From positions 2,409,919-2,422,320 of the forward strand of contig NZ_CM002139.1 of the NCBI RefSeq assembly GCF_000454545.1: a DNA stretch of 12,402 nucleotides, in the 5' to 3' direction. Positions 1,183 to 12,402 of this stretch are shown in pieces (the stretch's first letter is position 1; every line of letters begins with the position of its first letter). The notes under the pieces are model-generated. The model was not told the origin of the DNA. It searched no databases and was given only the letters and a program-made list of their open reading frames with translations. Origin of the DNA: Xanthomonas cassavae CFBP 4642. Lineage in GTDB: Bacteria; Pseudomonadota; Gammaproteobacteria; Xanthomonadales; Xanthomonadaceae. The translations under genes were made by a program, and so were the position numbers.

Positions 1183-1337
1183 CGAAACTCCTCTAGTAGC
1201 GGTACCCACCTCCGTCAAACCGGTGGGTTTTTTGTGCCTGCATCCCGCAGGTACAAGCCGACGCAATGCCTGCGTCGGGAGGGCGGCTAATACAACACCC
1301 GCAAGGGGAATACGCCCGCCGGCTACTAGCGGTTTCG
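1183..1337 (+). ncRNA. multibranched structured leader RNA upstream of the symE operon
   Basis: Pairing found by eye: outer helix CGAAA (1183-1187), a 2-nt bulge, CC (1190-1191), a mismatch, and CTAGTAGC (1193-1200) pair with GCTACTAG (1322-1329), GG (1331-1332) and TTTCG (1333-1337). Inside are four further helices. First, ACCCACC/GGTGGGT (1204-1210/1222-1228). Second, CCTGC/GCAGG (1237-1241/1247-1251). Third, CCGACGCA/TGCGTCGG (1258-1265/1271-1278, 5-nt loop). Fourth, GGCGG/CCGCC (1282-1286/1316-1320), enclosing CCC-GCAA-GGG (1298-1307). This amount of nested pairing in about 155 nt is far above what coding or spacer DNA usually shows. It could be a cis-acting leader of symE or, because pairing is symmetric, the template of an antisense RNA. 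The described ptaRNA1 family lies antisense to the 5' leader of a Xanthomonas toxin gene; whether this is a member cannot be judged by eye. Confidence 0.55.
1204..1233 (+). terminator. intrinsic-terminator-like hairpin inside the leader
   Basis: A 7-bp stem ACCCACC/GGTGGGT (1204-1210 with 1222-1228) with an 11-nt loop runs directly into six T residues (1228-1233) on the plus strand. Placed between the possible promoter and the first start codon at 1400, it would act as an attenuator or premature terminator rather than an end-of-operon signal. On the minus strand the hairpin has no U-tract. Confidence 0.5.
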
Positions 1338-1339
1338 AA

Positions 1340-1391
1340 CCTCCCGACATCCCGTCGCCGTTGGCGGCGGTTCTTGGGTTGTTCCAGGAGG
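1340..1391 (+). promoter_or_regulatory. possible Shine-Dalgarno-sequestering helix before the first start codon
   Basis: The strong ribosome-binding site AGGAGG (1386-1391), 8 nt before the ATG at 1400, can pair through GGAGG (1387-1391) with CCTCC (1340-1344). The intervening bases contain their own hairpin, CGCCG (1356-1360) with CGGCG (1365-1369) and a TTGG loop. If it forms, translation of the small ORF, and by coupling SymE, would be masked. Only five base pairs close the outer helix, so this is a suggestion. Confidence 0.35.
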
Positions 1392-9578: not shown

Positions 9579-12402
9579 TTACCCGATGACCGGCCCCGGC
9601 GGCGTCGGCTGCTCCTGTTTGGCTTGCGTCATCGCCTGCTGCTGCCGTGCTGTTTTCAGCGTATGGGCCTGCACCTGTTGCATCGATGCCTCGATCGACG
9701 GTGCCGGCTCGGCGATGGATGTGGCGAAGCGCTTGGTGATGTCGTCGTAGTTCTGCGCATAGAACCGCTCGTTGACCACATCCACCCGCCCATCCCAGCC
9801 GGGCTTGAAGCCTTCCATGTACAGGGCCGCCGTGAGCTGGGTCAAGCGATCCTCCGGTAGCGGCGTGCCCTTCGCCTCCAACCGGTCTTTCACGTCCACA
9901 TACAGGGGATGGCCGGGGTGCGCCGGGTCGCTGAAGGCGCGCGGTGTGGCCGAGGACTGCGTCTGCGCCGGGCTGTCGATGGCGCCTGGCAGCGATGCCT
10001 CGTCGCGCTGCGTGTCCTGGGTTTCCCGCTCGGCCGGCCGCCCGCGCTCCTGCTGCAGCTGTTGGTCCTGCTGCAACTGCCATTGGCGTTGTTGTTCCAG
10101 CAGCGCGTGTTGCTGCTGTGCAGGTAGATCGGGTGGGCTGCGTTCAGGCGTGGCGGCGAGCGGTGCGGTAGCGGGCATGACCATCACGCTGCGTGGCGCC
10201 TCCTGCGACACCGGGCCTGCGTGCTGCGACACCGGGCCTGCGTGTTGTGGCGTGTCGCGCTGGGCAATGGCTGCGCTGGCTTGCTGCTGCACCGTTGCAA
10301 GAGTATGGCGGTCGGCGATGCCGGTGACCTCATCCATGCCCTGCATCAACTGGAAGGCCTGCACACCGCGCTGGGTGGGCTGATCGTAGGTGCCGTTGAT
10401 CTCCACCGGTGTCTTGATCCGCTCGTTGATACCCAGCTGGATCAGGCTGGCCTGCAGCGCCTGTACCTCGGTGCCGTGGTCGCCCGGGCGTAGCGTCGCC
10501 CCTGGTGATGGGGCTTGGTCGGGTGCGGCGTGTTCCGGTAGCGCATCGCGCGCGTTGGCCGGCTTCAGGGAATCTGCCTGGATCTGCTCTACCGCACTGC
10601 GGATCTCCTCGGTGCTGGTGGTCGCGGCGACCCGCACCACGCCATCGGCATCGCGGCGCAGATGCTGTATCGGGCTGTCCACCGAGTAGTGGCCGGACCG
10701 ATCGCGCTCCAGAGCCAGCGACGTGATGGATGCGTCGATTCCGTTTGCCTCACGCGTGTGCTGCAGCGCCTGCTGGACGGCGTCGGTCGTCGTGGCATTG
10801 GGCGCAACCCCGTAGGCTGCATAGGTCGCCTGCAGGTTGACCTGGTCCTGCTGCTGCGGCGTTGGAGACCGCCGTTGCGGCATCTGCTCCATTGCCCGTG
10901 CGTGCTGGTCCAGGGCTGGCTGCAACTGCTGGCGGGTGGCGTCGAGTTCTGCCAGGACGTTGCCTTGGGCCACGTCATCGCCATTGCGCCATTGGCCTCG
11001 CGTGTCGCGCGTGTAGTACTTGCCGTCGGAGGCTTCCAGTGCGTCCGCGCTCAGCGCCGTCTGCACGGAGACCGGCATCGGGCCGAACGCATCCCAACCG
11101 TTGCGCCGATAGGCAGCTTGATAGGTTGCCGCAATTGCGGCCGGGCCACGGGCAATGTTGGCATCGATCACCTGGGCCGCCTGCTGATCCAGTTGGATGG
11201 CACGTTCGGGGCTGGCCGGATCGACATTCCAGACCGGCCGGTCATTCCGATCGACCTCGTCGGCCACCATCCGCGACCATTGTCCGTTGGTGGCATCACG
11301 CCTCCAATCGCGCTGGTACAGGTGCGCGACGTCTGCCTGGCCGGACGGCTGCACATAGGGACTAGTGGATTGCACCTTGCCCAGCGCCTGCTCGGTCGCT
11401 TCGCTGCTGGCGTGGTAGTTCAGCTCGCGCGCTTTCTCGGGCAGCGCGAACATGCCCTGCTTCTGCGGCGTACCCACGCCGTCGTCTTGCAGGTCGGCCT
11501 TTTCTTGGCGCAGCCACTGGCTGCCGTTGAACTCCCAGCTCACGCCCTGCGTGTCGGTCTGCGTATAGATCTGGCGGTTGTCCCAGAGCGTCGCGGCCTT
11601 GTCGGCCGCCGTGCTGAACAGGTATGCGTCGGCCATGACCAGCGCGACAGGGCCGGCACCGGTGGTGCCAACAACGGCAGCGGTGGCGGCACCTCCGGCC
11701 CAGCCGCCCGCGCCTCGGGCAGCAAAGTGCAGCGCTTCCGAGCGCGCAGCGGTGAGGTTGTCCTGTGCCAACAGCGTGGCAACACGCTCTTCGGTTTGCG
11801 ACGCATCGTAGGCGGTCGCGGCGACGCCCAGACCCGCAAGCCCTGCCGTCATCCCTGCGCGGCCCAAGCCTGGGATTTCAGGTTCTGGCGTGGTTTGGAT
11901 GTTGCGTCCCTGCCACTCATCCCAGCGCGCCTGACCCGCCTGGGCATGCTCGGTTGGCGGATTCATGCGCTCACTGAGCGGAAGCGTGCTCTGGTCTAAC
12001 GCCTTCGACGTTCCCTCAATGGCCGTTCCACGAAAATACTCTCTGTTGTCGAGCCTCAGAACTTTGTTCTCGCGGAGCGCATCATCACTGGCCGGGATGC
12101 GCAGCATGCCCTCGTGTTCACGCGCACGCGCAACAATCAACTCAAAAGCTGCCTGCTGACCGAGCCGATCTTTCACACCGACTAGCGCTTCACGCGGAAG
12201 CCCCTCAATCGAGGTGACGTTTGGATTGGCAAGAATGCGAGGCACTTCAATTTCGCCAAAGACGCGGCTTGGCTGAGCGTCGCCCACGATGGCATGAACT
12301 TCACCTACGGAAACTCTGAACAACTCCCCCTGATCCTGCGACAATCGCACAGAGGCACCAGGACGATGACGATGCAACTGACCTTCGGCGACGCGGAGTA
12401 CA
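9579..12402 (-). CDS. probable T4SS antibacterial effector (X-Tfe) with PG_binding_1 and XVIPCD-like domains; N-terminus beyond the window
   Basis: The frame is open to the window edge (940 visible residues) and ends at TAA (complement of 9579-9581). The in-frame TTG at 12375-12377 is not a credible start because coding continues past it. Visible parts, numbered from the edge, begin with a globular portion (1-150). Gly/Ala-rich membrane-like stretches follow (about 178-198 and 229-262, e.g. GGAATAAVVGTTGAGPVALV), then a long helical/polar region. Next are a peptidoglycan-binding PG_binding_1 domain (about 637-708: LRPGDHGTEVQALQASL and AFQLMQGMDEVTG), a Gln-rich spacer, and a final 118 residues beginning FSDPAHPGHPLYVDVKDRL and ending Gln-rich. 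That end resembles the XVIPCD, which is recognised by VirD4 and targets toxins into the Xanthomonas VirB/D4 bacterial-killing system. The toxic domain is presumably in the missing N-terminus, so the activity is unknown. Confidence 0.8.
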   Translation of the reverse strand, partial: VLRVAEGQLHRHRPGASVRLSQDQGELFRVSVGEVHAIVGDAQPSRVFGEIEVPRILANPNVTSIEGLPREALVGVKDRLGQQAAFELIVARAREHEGMLRIPASDDALRENKVLRLDNREYFRGTAIEGTSKALDQSTLPLSERMNPPTEHAQAGQARWDEWQGRNIQTTPEPEIPGLGRAGMTAGLAGLGVAATAYDASQTEERVATLLAQDNLTAARSEALHFAARGAGGWAGGAATAAVVGTTGAGPVALVMADAYLFSTAADKAATLWDNRQIYTQTDTQGVSWEFNGSQWLRQEKADLQDDGVGTPQKQGMFALPEKARELNYHASSEATEQALGKVQSTSPYVQPSGQADVAHLYQRDWRRDATNGQWSRMVADEVDRNDRPVWNVDPASPERAIQLDQQAAQVIDANIARGPAAIAATYQAAYRRNGWDAFGPMPVSVQTALSADALEASDGKYYTRDTRGQWRNGDDVAQGNVLAELDATRQQLQPALDQHARAMEQMPQRRSPTPQQQDQVNLQATYAAYGVAPNATTTDAVQQALQHTREANGIDASITSLALERDRSGHYSVDSPIQHLRRDADGVVRVAATTSTEEIRSAVEQIQADSLKPANARDALPEHAAPDQAPSPGATLRPGDHGTEVQALQASLIQLGINERIKTPVEINGTYDQPTQRGVQAFQLMQGMDEVTGIADRHTLATVQQQASAAIAQRDTPQHAGPVSQHAGPVSQEAPRSVMVMPATAPLAATPERSPPDLPAQQQHALLEQQRQWQLQQDQQLQQERGRPAERETQDTQRDEASLPGAIDSPAQTQSSATPRAFSDPAHPGHPLYVDVKDRLEAKGTPLPEDRLTQLTAALYMEGFKPGWDGRVDVVNERFYAQNYDDITKRFATSIAEPAPSIEASMQQVQAHTLKTARQQQAMTQAKQEQPTPPGPVIG
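9582..9935 (-). other. XVIPCD-like T4SS recruitment domain (C-terminal 118 residues)
   Basis: Opens with DPAHPGHPLY, close to the 'DPAHPDH.LY' opening of many XVIPCDs, continues with DRLTQLTAALYMEGF and ends in a Gln-rich tail (ARQQQAMTQAKQEQP). The conserved middle 'RIDHV...FAVQG' is only loosely represented (GRVDVVNERFYAQN). It is therefore a divergent member or a subtype. Confidence 0.7.
10203..10244. repeat. 21-bp direct duplication inside the effector gene
   Basis: CTGCGACACCGGGCCTGCGTG occurs twice back to back (10203-10223, 10224-10244), encoding the heptapeptide HAGPVSQ twice in the linker after the PG_binding domain. The units are identical, so the duplication is recent, and it is in frame, so the gene stays open. 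Confidence 0.97.

Follow-up and report, generated by a model that had tools for sequence, protein, structure and literature searches.

The window analysed here (the whole 12,402-nt stretch at positions 2,409,919 to 2,422,320 of NZ_CM002139.1, Xanthomonas cassavae CFBP 4642; all coordinates below are window positions) carries a structured leader followed by two overlapping genes on the + strand. The first gene, ORF1 (1400-1669), encodes a diverged XAC0095-like protein of 89 aa; its ATG (1400-1402, +) is preceded by the Shine-Dalgarno sequence GGAGGG (1387-1392), and it overlaps the second gene, symE (1666-2082, 138 aa), as ATGA. The symE product matched Pfam family PF08845 with 61.8 bits, compared to a cut-off of 29, and is thus a member of the SymE toxin family and a predicted toxin, which confirms the symE operon that a first-pass annotation had placed behind the leader. 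With the NCBI equivalog model NF010128, the same protein scored 28.4, far under the cut-off of 132. Of six ORF1-type proteins scanned, four matched NF047335 (XAC0095) with E values of 1e-7 to 1e-10, three sister proteins above the cut-off of 34 and the fourth just under it at 32 bits. The ORF1-type proteins of the window and of locus L008 gave no match to this model, and the window's ORF1 matched no family. Elsewhere in the window are a DUF6216 protein at 158-952 on the - strand (PF19723, E = 3.6e-65), short tandem repeats of the GATTCCC/GAATCCC type with a 14-nt spacing at 2316-2399, downstream of symE, an ORF beyond these repeats that we take, from reading it, to be cheA-like, and a 932-aa ORF with a peptidoglycan-binding domain (PF01471) at 9579-12377 on the - strand.

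The + strand of 1183-1337 folded with a minimum free energy (MFE) of -77.1 kcal/mol (z = -5.88), and none of 200 dinucleotide shuffles was equally stable; the - strand of the same segment was less stable (z = -3.32, 1 of 200 shuffles). These results bear out the multibranch RNA structure proposed there by the first-pass annotation, and both its outer helix (7 + 8 bp) and its GCAA loop are present in the MFE structure. The outer helix is formed by pairing of A (1183-1202) with A* (1319-1337). Segment A as a whole (1175-1203, +) resembles seqA of phage P4 and comprises a short hairpin on its 5' side (1175-1179/1188-1192) together with the bases that A* complements. Directly 3' of segment A, the MFE structure contains an intrinsic-terminator-like hairpin with a T run (1204-1234, +; stem 1204-1210/1222-1228). 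Next comes hairpin 2 (1231-1257, +), for which the consensus fold keeps pairs with changes on both sides, and hairpin 3 (1258-1278, +; stem 1258-1265/1271-1278). The four internal hairpins that had been described are all in the MFE structure, but the third shares the strand GTCGG (1274-1278) with another helix, P1 (1274-1282/1340-1348). The fold with four hairpins and the fold with P1 are therefore alternative conformers that compete with each other. The TTGACA noted earlier ahead of the structure is indeed there, at 1138-1143, 18 nt before CAATCT (1162-1167), and together these boxes form a promoter as read from the sequence (1138-1167, +), from which transcription would start near 1174.

Helix P1 belongs to the Rfam family sRNA-Xcc1 (RF02221), the covariance model of which matched 1274-1356 (+) with 78.8 bits, compared to a gathering threshold of 53. 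This match makes the 3' half of the leader, its CI/C4-like antisense part, a member of a named RNA class, which the first-pass annotation had been unable to assign, and moves the end of the unit beyond the 1337 that it had given. The 1183-1337 fold is part of a longer leader, 1138-1356. For the full leader, the predicted folding energy was -127.3 kcal/mol. Segment A* (1318-1340, +), delimited by covariation and by complementarity to A, lies inside sRNA-Xcc1. In X. campestris (Xcc 8004), sRNA-Xcc1 was reported as a discrete RNA of approximately 100 nt on Northern blots and 88 nt by RACE (PMC2996969), and it was detected again by RNA-seq of Xcc (PMC7694677). The family is listed among those with an R-scape-improved structure (PMC11701678), has 15 copies in Aeromonas salmonicida J223 (PMC8780938), and is described as vesicle cargo in Xylella (PMC12189769). 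The combination of symE with sRNA-Xcc1 upstream of it is reported to be the most widespread integron cassette of Xanthomonas (PMC12444791).

The structure was compared across homologues in alignment A2, which holds 46 window-type leaders drawn from 51 type-X leaders of less than 90% identity and excludes L213, L237, L278, and L296, which are truncated or tandem; alignment A1 was made without the IS-interrupted L078. Lack of covariation across homologues had been proposed as grounds for abandoning the structure, a test that the outer helix withstood. The outer helix was 97.2% paired over the 17 pairs counted in the 46 leaders, and eight of its pairs, with 106 cells, were altered on both sides. 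Its covariation score was 0.372, compared to 0.092 +- 0.010 in shuffled alignments, none of 500 of which reached it, and to 0.010 to 0.052 after sliding. One of the 17 pairs was unpaired in 19 of the 46 leaders, and one was U-G (T-G in DNA) in all 46, which favors an RNA of the + strand over DNA or the other strand. Positions 1181 and 1339 also changed in concert (G.A in 25 leaders, C-G in 19, T-A in 1, and G-C in 1). Helix P1 was 99.8% paired and nearly invariant in the 46 relatives, with one pair altered on both sides, no more than in shuffles, and hairpin 3 was 88.9% paired, with covariation not above that of shuffles.

The first-pass annotation had offered two functions, a sensor or the target of an antisense RNA, with ptaRNA1, a family present in Rfam, as the closest idea. 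Nothing was found in favor of ligand sensing. Antisense pairing did prove to be the key to the leader, but it involves no separate opposite-strand RNA: A* shares both leader and strand with the 5' part that it complements. When 1100-1700 was searched on both strands at E <= 10, only sRNA-Xcc1 and one sub-threshold snoRNA model were returned; a ptaRNA1- or SymR-type antisense RNA was rejected, since no such model matched. An opposite-strand antisense RNA directed at this leader would have a precedent in Escherichia coli, where SymR, encoded in cis, regulates SymE (PMC12444791), and the two systems are alike in placing SymE under antisense control. SymR is made from the opposite strand, while the window's antisense is within the same leader. 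The lack of a match on either strand and the better folding of the + strand make a target for an opposite-strand RNA extremely improbable.

The signals around A were conserved in a wider collection of leaders. Loci were assigned to type X, the type of the window, or to a phage type by a single motif, CCACC[TC]CCG; as a result, some type-X-like loci (e.g., L031, L118, and L135) fall in the phage-type set, where they were kept together with some likely chance matches (e.g., L173). Of 167 distinct type-X leaders, 137 had TTGAC[ATC] at the position equivalent to that in the window, compared to 3 of 164 at a control position; for phage-type leaders, the counts were 35 of 85 and 4 of 77. The spacing of the type-X promoter boxes was 17 to 18 nt. 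A T run of at least 5 nt occurred in 166 of 167 type-X leaders (18 of 164 at the control place), and a T run occurred in 66 of 85 phage-type leaders (16 of 77). Of the 167 type-X leaders, 162 had the terminator loop motif CCGNNA (1204-1240 region) and 162 had RTGY after the T run; among the 85 phage-type leaders, the counts were 58 and 46, respectively. These two motifs are conserved beyond the needs of a terminator. The distance from the core to the start of the first ORF had a median of 87 nt in type X (ORF found at 206 of 210 loci) and 84 nt in the phage type (71 of 88 loci).

We then compared the complementarity of A* to its own locus with its complementarity to other loci. The core matched at 180 places, 173 of them distinct and 164 usable, which gave 110 distinct A* segments; for each, the longest pairing (run-length complementarity) was determined, and 2,000 permutations were made. 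For the 79 phage-type segments, the fit to the locus's own upstream A was 6.99, compared to 5.74 for other loci (0 of 2,000 permutations; a score of at least 6 in 71 of 79), and the fit to its own ribosome-site region was 7.16, compared to 5.67 (0 of 2,000; at least 6 in 61 of 79). Many of these ribosome-site matches extended into the Shine-Dalgarno sequence ahead of the ATG. Different results were obtained for the 31 type-X segments: the upstream fit was 7.84, compared to 6.12 (0 of 2,000 permutations), and there was no fit to the downstream ribosome site (5.56, compared to 5.86, with 1,970 of 2,000 permutations at least as high). A set of 30 distinct type-X segments taken within the genus gave the upstream fit again (7.78 versus 5.29, 0 of 2,000). 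No second type-X target was detected in any of eight bins reaching approximately 840 nt downstream (best bin, 475 of 2,000 permutations), and the region of the window's own Shine-Dalgarno sequence was not complementary to A*. Run-length complementarity of the variable segment replaced generic duplex energies after the result of the latter was known. With duplex energies, the pairing of A* with its own upstream region ranked among the top 5% in 57% of 166 loci, and that with its own ribosome-site region in only 8%, a low figure attributable to the GC-rich conserved blocks that dominate such energies.

Copies of A* within one genome were no more different than expected by chance: all 20 nt were identical in 3 of 310 within-genome pairs, compared to 99 of 6,499 pairs between genomes (Fisher p = 0.31), and the 8-nt core was identical in 9 of 310 and 256 of 6,499, which was not significant. 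This level of diversity gives no sign of copy-specific action in trans. Predicted folding of the window showed no ON state, with an unpaired probability of the Shine-Dalgarno sequence of 0.02 to 0.21 across four modelled states; predicted folding did not discriminate translation states in the window. The terminator of the short RNA was predicted to form with or without A*.

The immunity region of phage P4 served as a positive control, and the complementarity measure recovered its seqA-CI-seqC layout. Upstream matches to CI were TTCACAGG (8) and GTGAGAA (7), and downstream matches were GGAGGCTGCC (10), GGCGATAGC (9), and TTCACAGGA (9), with GGAGGCTGCC and TTCACAGGA at one ribosome site. The P4 CI RNA arises by processing of its own leader and has two pairing partners, seqA on the upstream side and seqC on the downstream side (PMC4825925). 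The leader resembles the P4 region in the order promoter, A, terminator, and antisense RNA, in the two-block complementarity to the upstream site, and, in its phage-type relatives, in a further copy of this site at the ribosome site; P4 and the window also share the letters after the terminator hairpin (TTTTTTTGTG; TTTTTT(T)GTG). It differs in that its antisense core is another one, other genes are downstream, and the window type has no downstream target. In the IsrK system of Gifsy-1, a small ORF and an antirepressor are under the control of two RNAs with parts complementary to each other, one short and terminated, the other an isoform made by read-through (PMC4825925). The same pair of RNAs is proposed here, and in both cases a small ORF is coupled to the next gene, but IsrK activates translation in trans and has an antirepressor downstream (PMC4825925). 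As with C4 of P1 and P7 and with c4-a1b1 (PMC2864571), the antisense is encoded in the leader of its own target, and, as with C4, phage-type relatives of the leader have upstream and downstream target sites.

Rfam models separate the leader from these systems. On the P4 region, C4 (RF01695) and isrK (RF01394) scored above their cut-offs and c4-a1b1 just below, whereas C4, c4-a1b1 (RF03163), and isrK gave no match at 1100-1700 up to E = 10 and none in 13 relatives up to E = 0.1. Membership in these three families was rejected on this basis, and we call the leader C4/CI-like. Among the features of C4/CI-type leader RNAs, an antisense complementary to an upstream site in its own leader is present; a further target, at the ribosome site of the ORF behind the leader, is absent from the window and the 31 type-X segments and present in the 79 phage-type segments. 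In the literature surveyed, no link between sRNA-Xcc1 and C4, CI, or antirepressors was seen.

The same results bear on whether the leader could act purely in cis, with A and A* pairing only inside a single RNA, which would be a structural attenuator or a sensor of unknown type, and with the 88-nt sRNA-Xcc1 as a stable leftover. The great stability of the intramolecular fold, the lack of within-genome specificity, and the missing type-X ribosome-site target agree with such a leader. However, phage-type A* also fits its own ribosome site, which a mere outer helix would not need, and the parallel systems, P4 and IsrK, are trans acting (PMC4825925). On balance, we consider a purely cis-acting leader unlikely.

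The genes behind the leaders differed between the two types. Pfam scans covered 60 of the 66 distinct phage-type first ORFs (all but those of L031, L070, L071, L089, L178, and L270), and the domains found were Bro-N (9), P22_AR_C (7), Rha (6), KilA-N (5), AntA (4), ORF6N (4), and SymE (4), counts that partly overlap, along with a few further families; the commonest PHROG was anti-repressor Ant, in 18 of the 60. First ORFs with SymE-like sequence lay behind L050, L052, L075, and L120; of these, L050 is a named Pfam SymE match, and L052 keeps an 8-nt ribosome-site match. For type X, 44 of 118 distinct first ORFs were scanned, and 34 matched NCBIfam XAC0095, 5 NCBIfam SymE, and 5 Pfam SymE. Among 125 leaders of the genus Xanthomonas, drawn from the matches listed for the genus, 56 preceded an XAC0095-like ORF (ORF1-like ones included) and symE, 44 only an XAC0095-like ORF, and 24 only symE; the sole leader with neither by this test, L286, is followed by a symE-like start and then another ORF. 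With 124 of 125 copies before symE and/or an XAC0095-like ORF, the RNA behaves as a cis leader.

This regularity bears on the current annotation, by which sRNA-Xcc1 is a free, trans-acting virulence RNA with unlinked mRNA targets. The title of a 2011 paper by Chen reportedly calls it "trans-acting" and places it under HrpG and HrpX. That title and published target predictions (PMC2996969) speak for the annotation, but a free RNA would not be expected directly before the same genes at a constant distance in 124 of 125 genus copies, nor would its most variable part, A*, be expected to covary with the neighboring A. We regard unlinked targets as improbable.

The window's genome has seven sRNA-Xcc1 copies and six SymE-domain matches; by coordinates, five of the seven copies have symE no more than approximately 510 nt downstream, and such an RNA precedes five of the six symE genes. 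Matches to sRNA-Xcc1 above the cut-off were obtained in each of the 35 genus genomes searched, and in a class-wide draw with stricter filters, 26 of 369 genomes (the window's own included) had a match, 12 of 369 above the cut-off. A pattern scan of named genomes found at least 118 stretches, and the matches listed were mostly from Pseudomonadota and also from Desulfovibrionaceae, a Holophaga MAG, and Flaviflexus. For the core matches outside Pseudomonadota, L126 (Flaviflexus massiliensis) and L102 (Holophaga MAG), contamination is possible; L126 also has a 7-nt upstream match. Relatives of parts of the leader were present in 13 plasmid records and, with two queries, in 24 and 41 phage records, and in one Vibrio phage record, sRNA-Xcc1 is an annotated feature, followed by a hypothetical gene and a DNA-binding gene. 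Tandem modules, each before its own ORF and with a different A*, were seen in L085 (Escherichia phage PhiR5_2), where both ORFs are annotated as antirepressors, and in L129 (Oxalobacter MAG).

Similarity of the window to Xanthomonas copies at unlike places started near 1026-1039 in many rows and ended at 2161 in 29 of the 60 rows listed, some of which are one place twice; other copies continue beyond 2161 with a common further ORF that the window does not have. Judged by these shared boundaries, 1029-2161 is a mobile, cassette-like unit. In L078, on plasmid NZ_CP021010.1, IS5-like elements interrupt the leader, next to two symE copies arranged as an inverted pair. The unit ends shared by copies at unlike places and the reported integron cassettes (PMC12444791) would suit a structured single-stranded DNA site, for example, one like attC, rather than an RNA. 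The U-G pair in 46 of 46 leaders, the conserved promoter and terminator, and the ribosome-site complementarity argue against this possibility, which we find scarcely credible. In its RNA and neighboring gene, the window's unit is like the sRNA-Xcc1/symE cassette of PMC12444791; the cassette account in the excerpts of that paper gives only a divergent mechanism and names no antisense pairing, phage origin, or XAC0095-like ORF.

Taken together, these results demonstrate a real, conserved, same-strand antisense leader, with an A/A* pairing, promoter, terminator, and constant ORF distance that are legible in the DNA letters. We favor, with a probability of roughly 0.7, a self-antisense module that works like P4 CI, P1 C4, and Gifsy IsrK, has been captured in symE/XAC0095 cassettes, and has an upstream target only. 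One promoter would produce two RNAs: a short one that carries A and ends at the adjoining terminator, and a longer one, made by read-through, in which sRNA-Xcc1 is followed by ORF1-symE. The chances seem about even that the longer RNA then gives off sRNA-Xcc1, which base-pairs with A of newly made transcripts and favors termination, so that the operon keeps itself off; self-silencing through termination and action in trans are both predictions of this reading. More tentatively, a surplus of the short RNA or altered termination might titrate A* and allow ORF1-symE to be expressed. The leader was probably derived from phages and later lost its translational target.

Extended to the whole family, the self-antisense reading would make sRNA-Xcc1, annotated as virulence linked since 2010, a further lineage of phage self-immunity antisense RNAs beside C4 and P4 CI, one that in Xanthomonadaceae was domesticated into multicopy cassettes as a same-strand, upstream-only switch silencing XAC0095-like and SymE genes, with their release in certain settings, for example, during growth in the plant; this joint proposal could equally well hold or fail. 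The leader stands out because it would re-read a named "virulence sRNA" and because the window type would have lost the translational half of the switch. A testable function would follow for an Rfam family interpreted in the literature as a virulence sRNA, one RNA module would tie together phage antirepressor control, integron cassettes, and SymE, and there would be a proposal for how a very common Xanthomonas cassette stays quiet. The upstream-only type would also be a natural experiment on the capability of half a C4 switch.

XAC0095 itself becomes a lead, given that cells from citrus leaves were the only ones in which it was detected and that its mutant was one of eight with altered virulence (PMC2653504). 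By size and letters alone, the listed XAC0095 ORF (222 bp) and its primers (PMC2653504) resemble type-X ORFs, such as the 222-nt ORF of L030.
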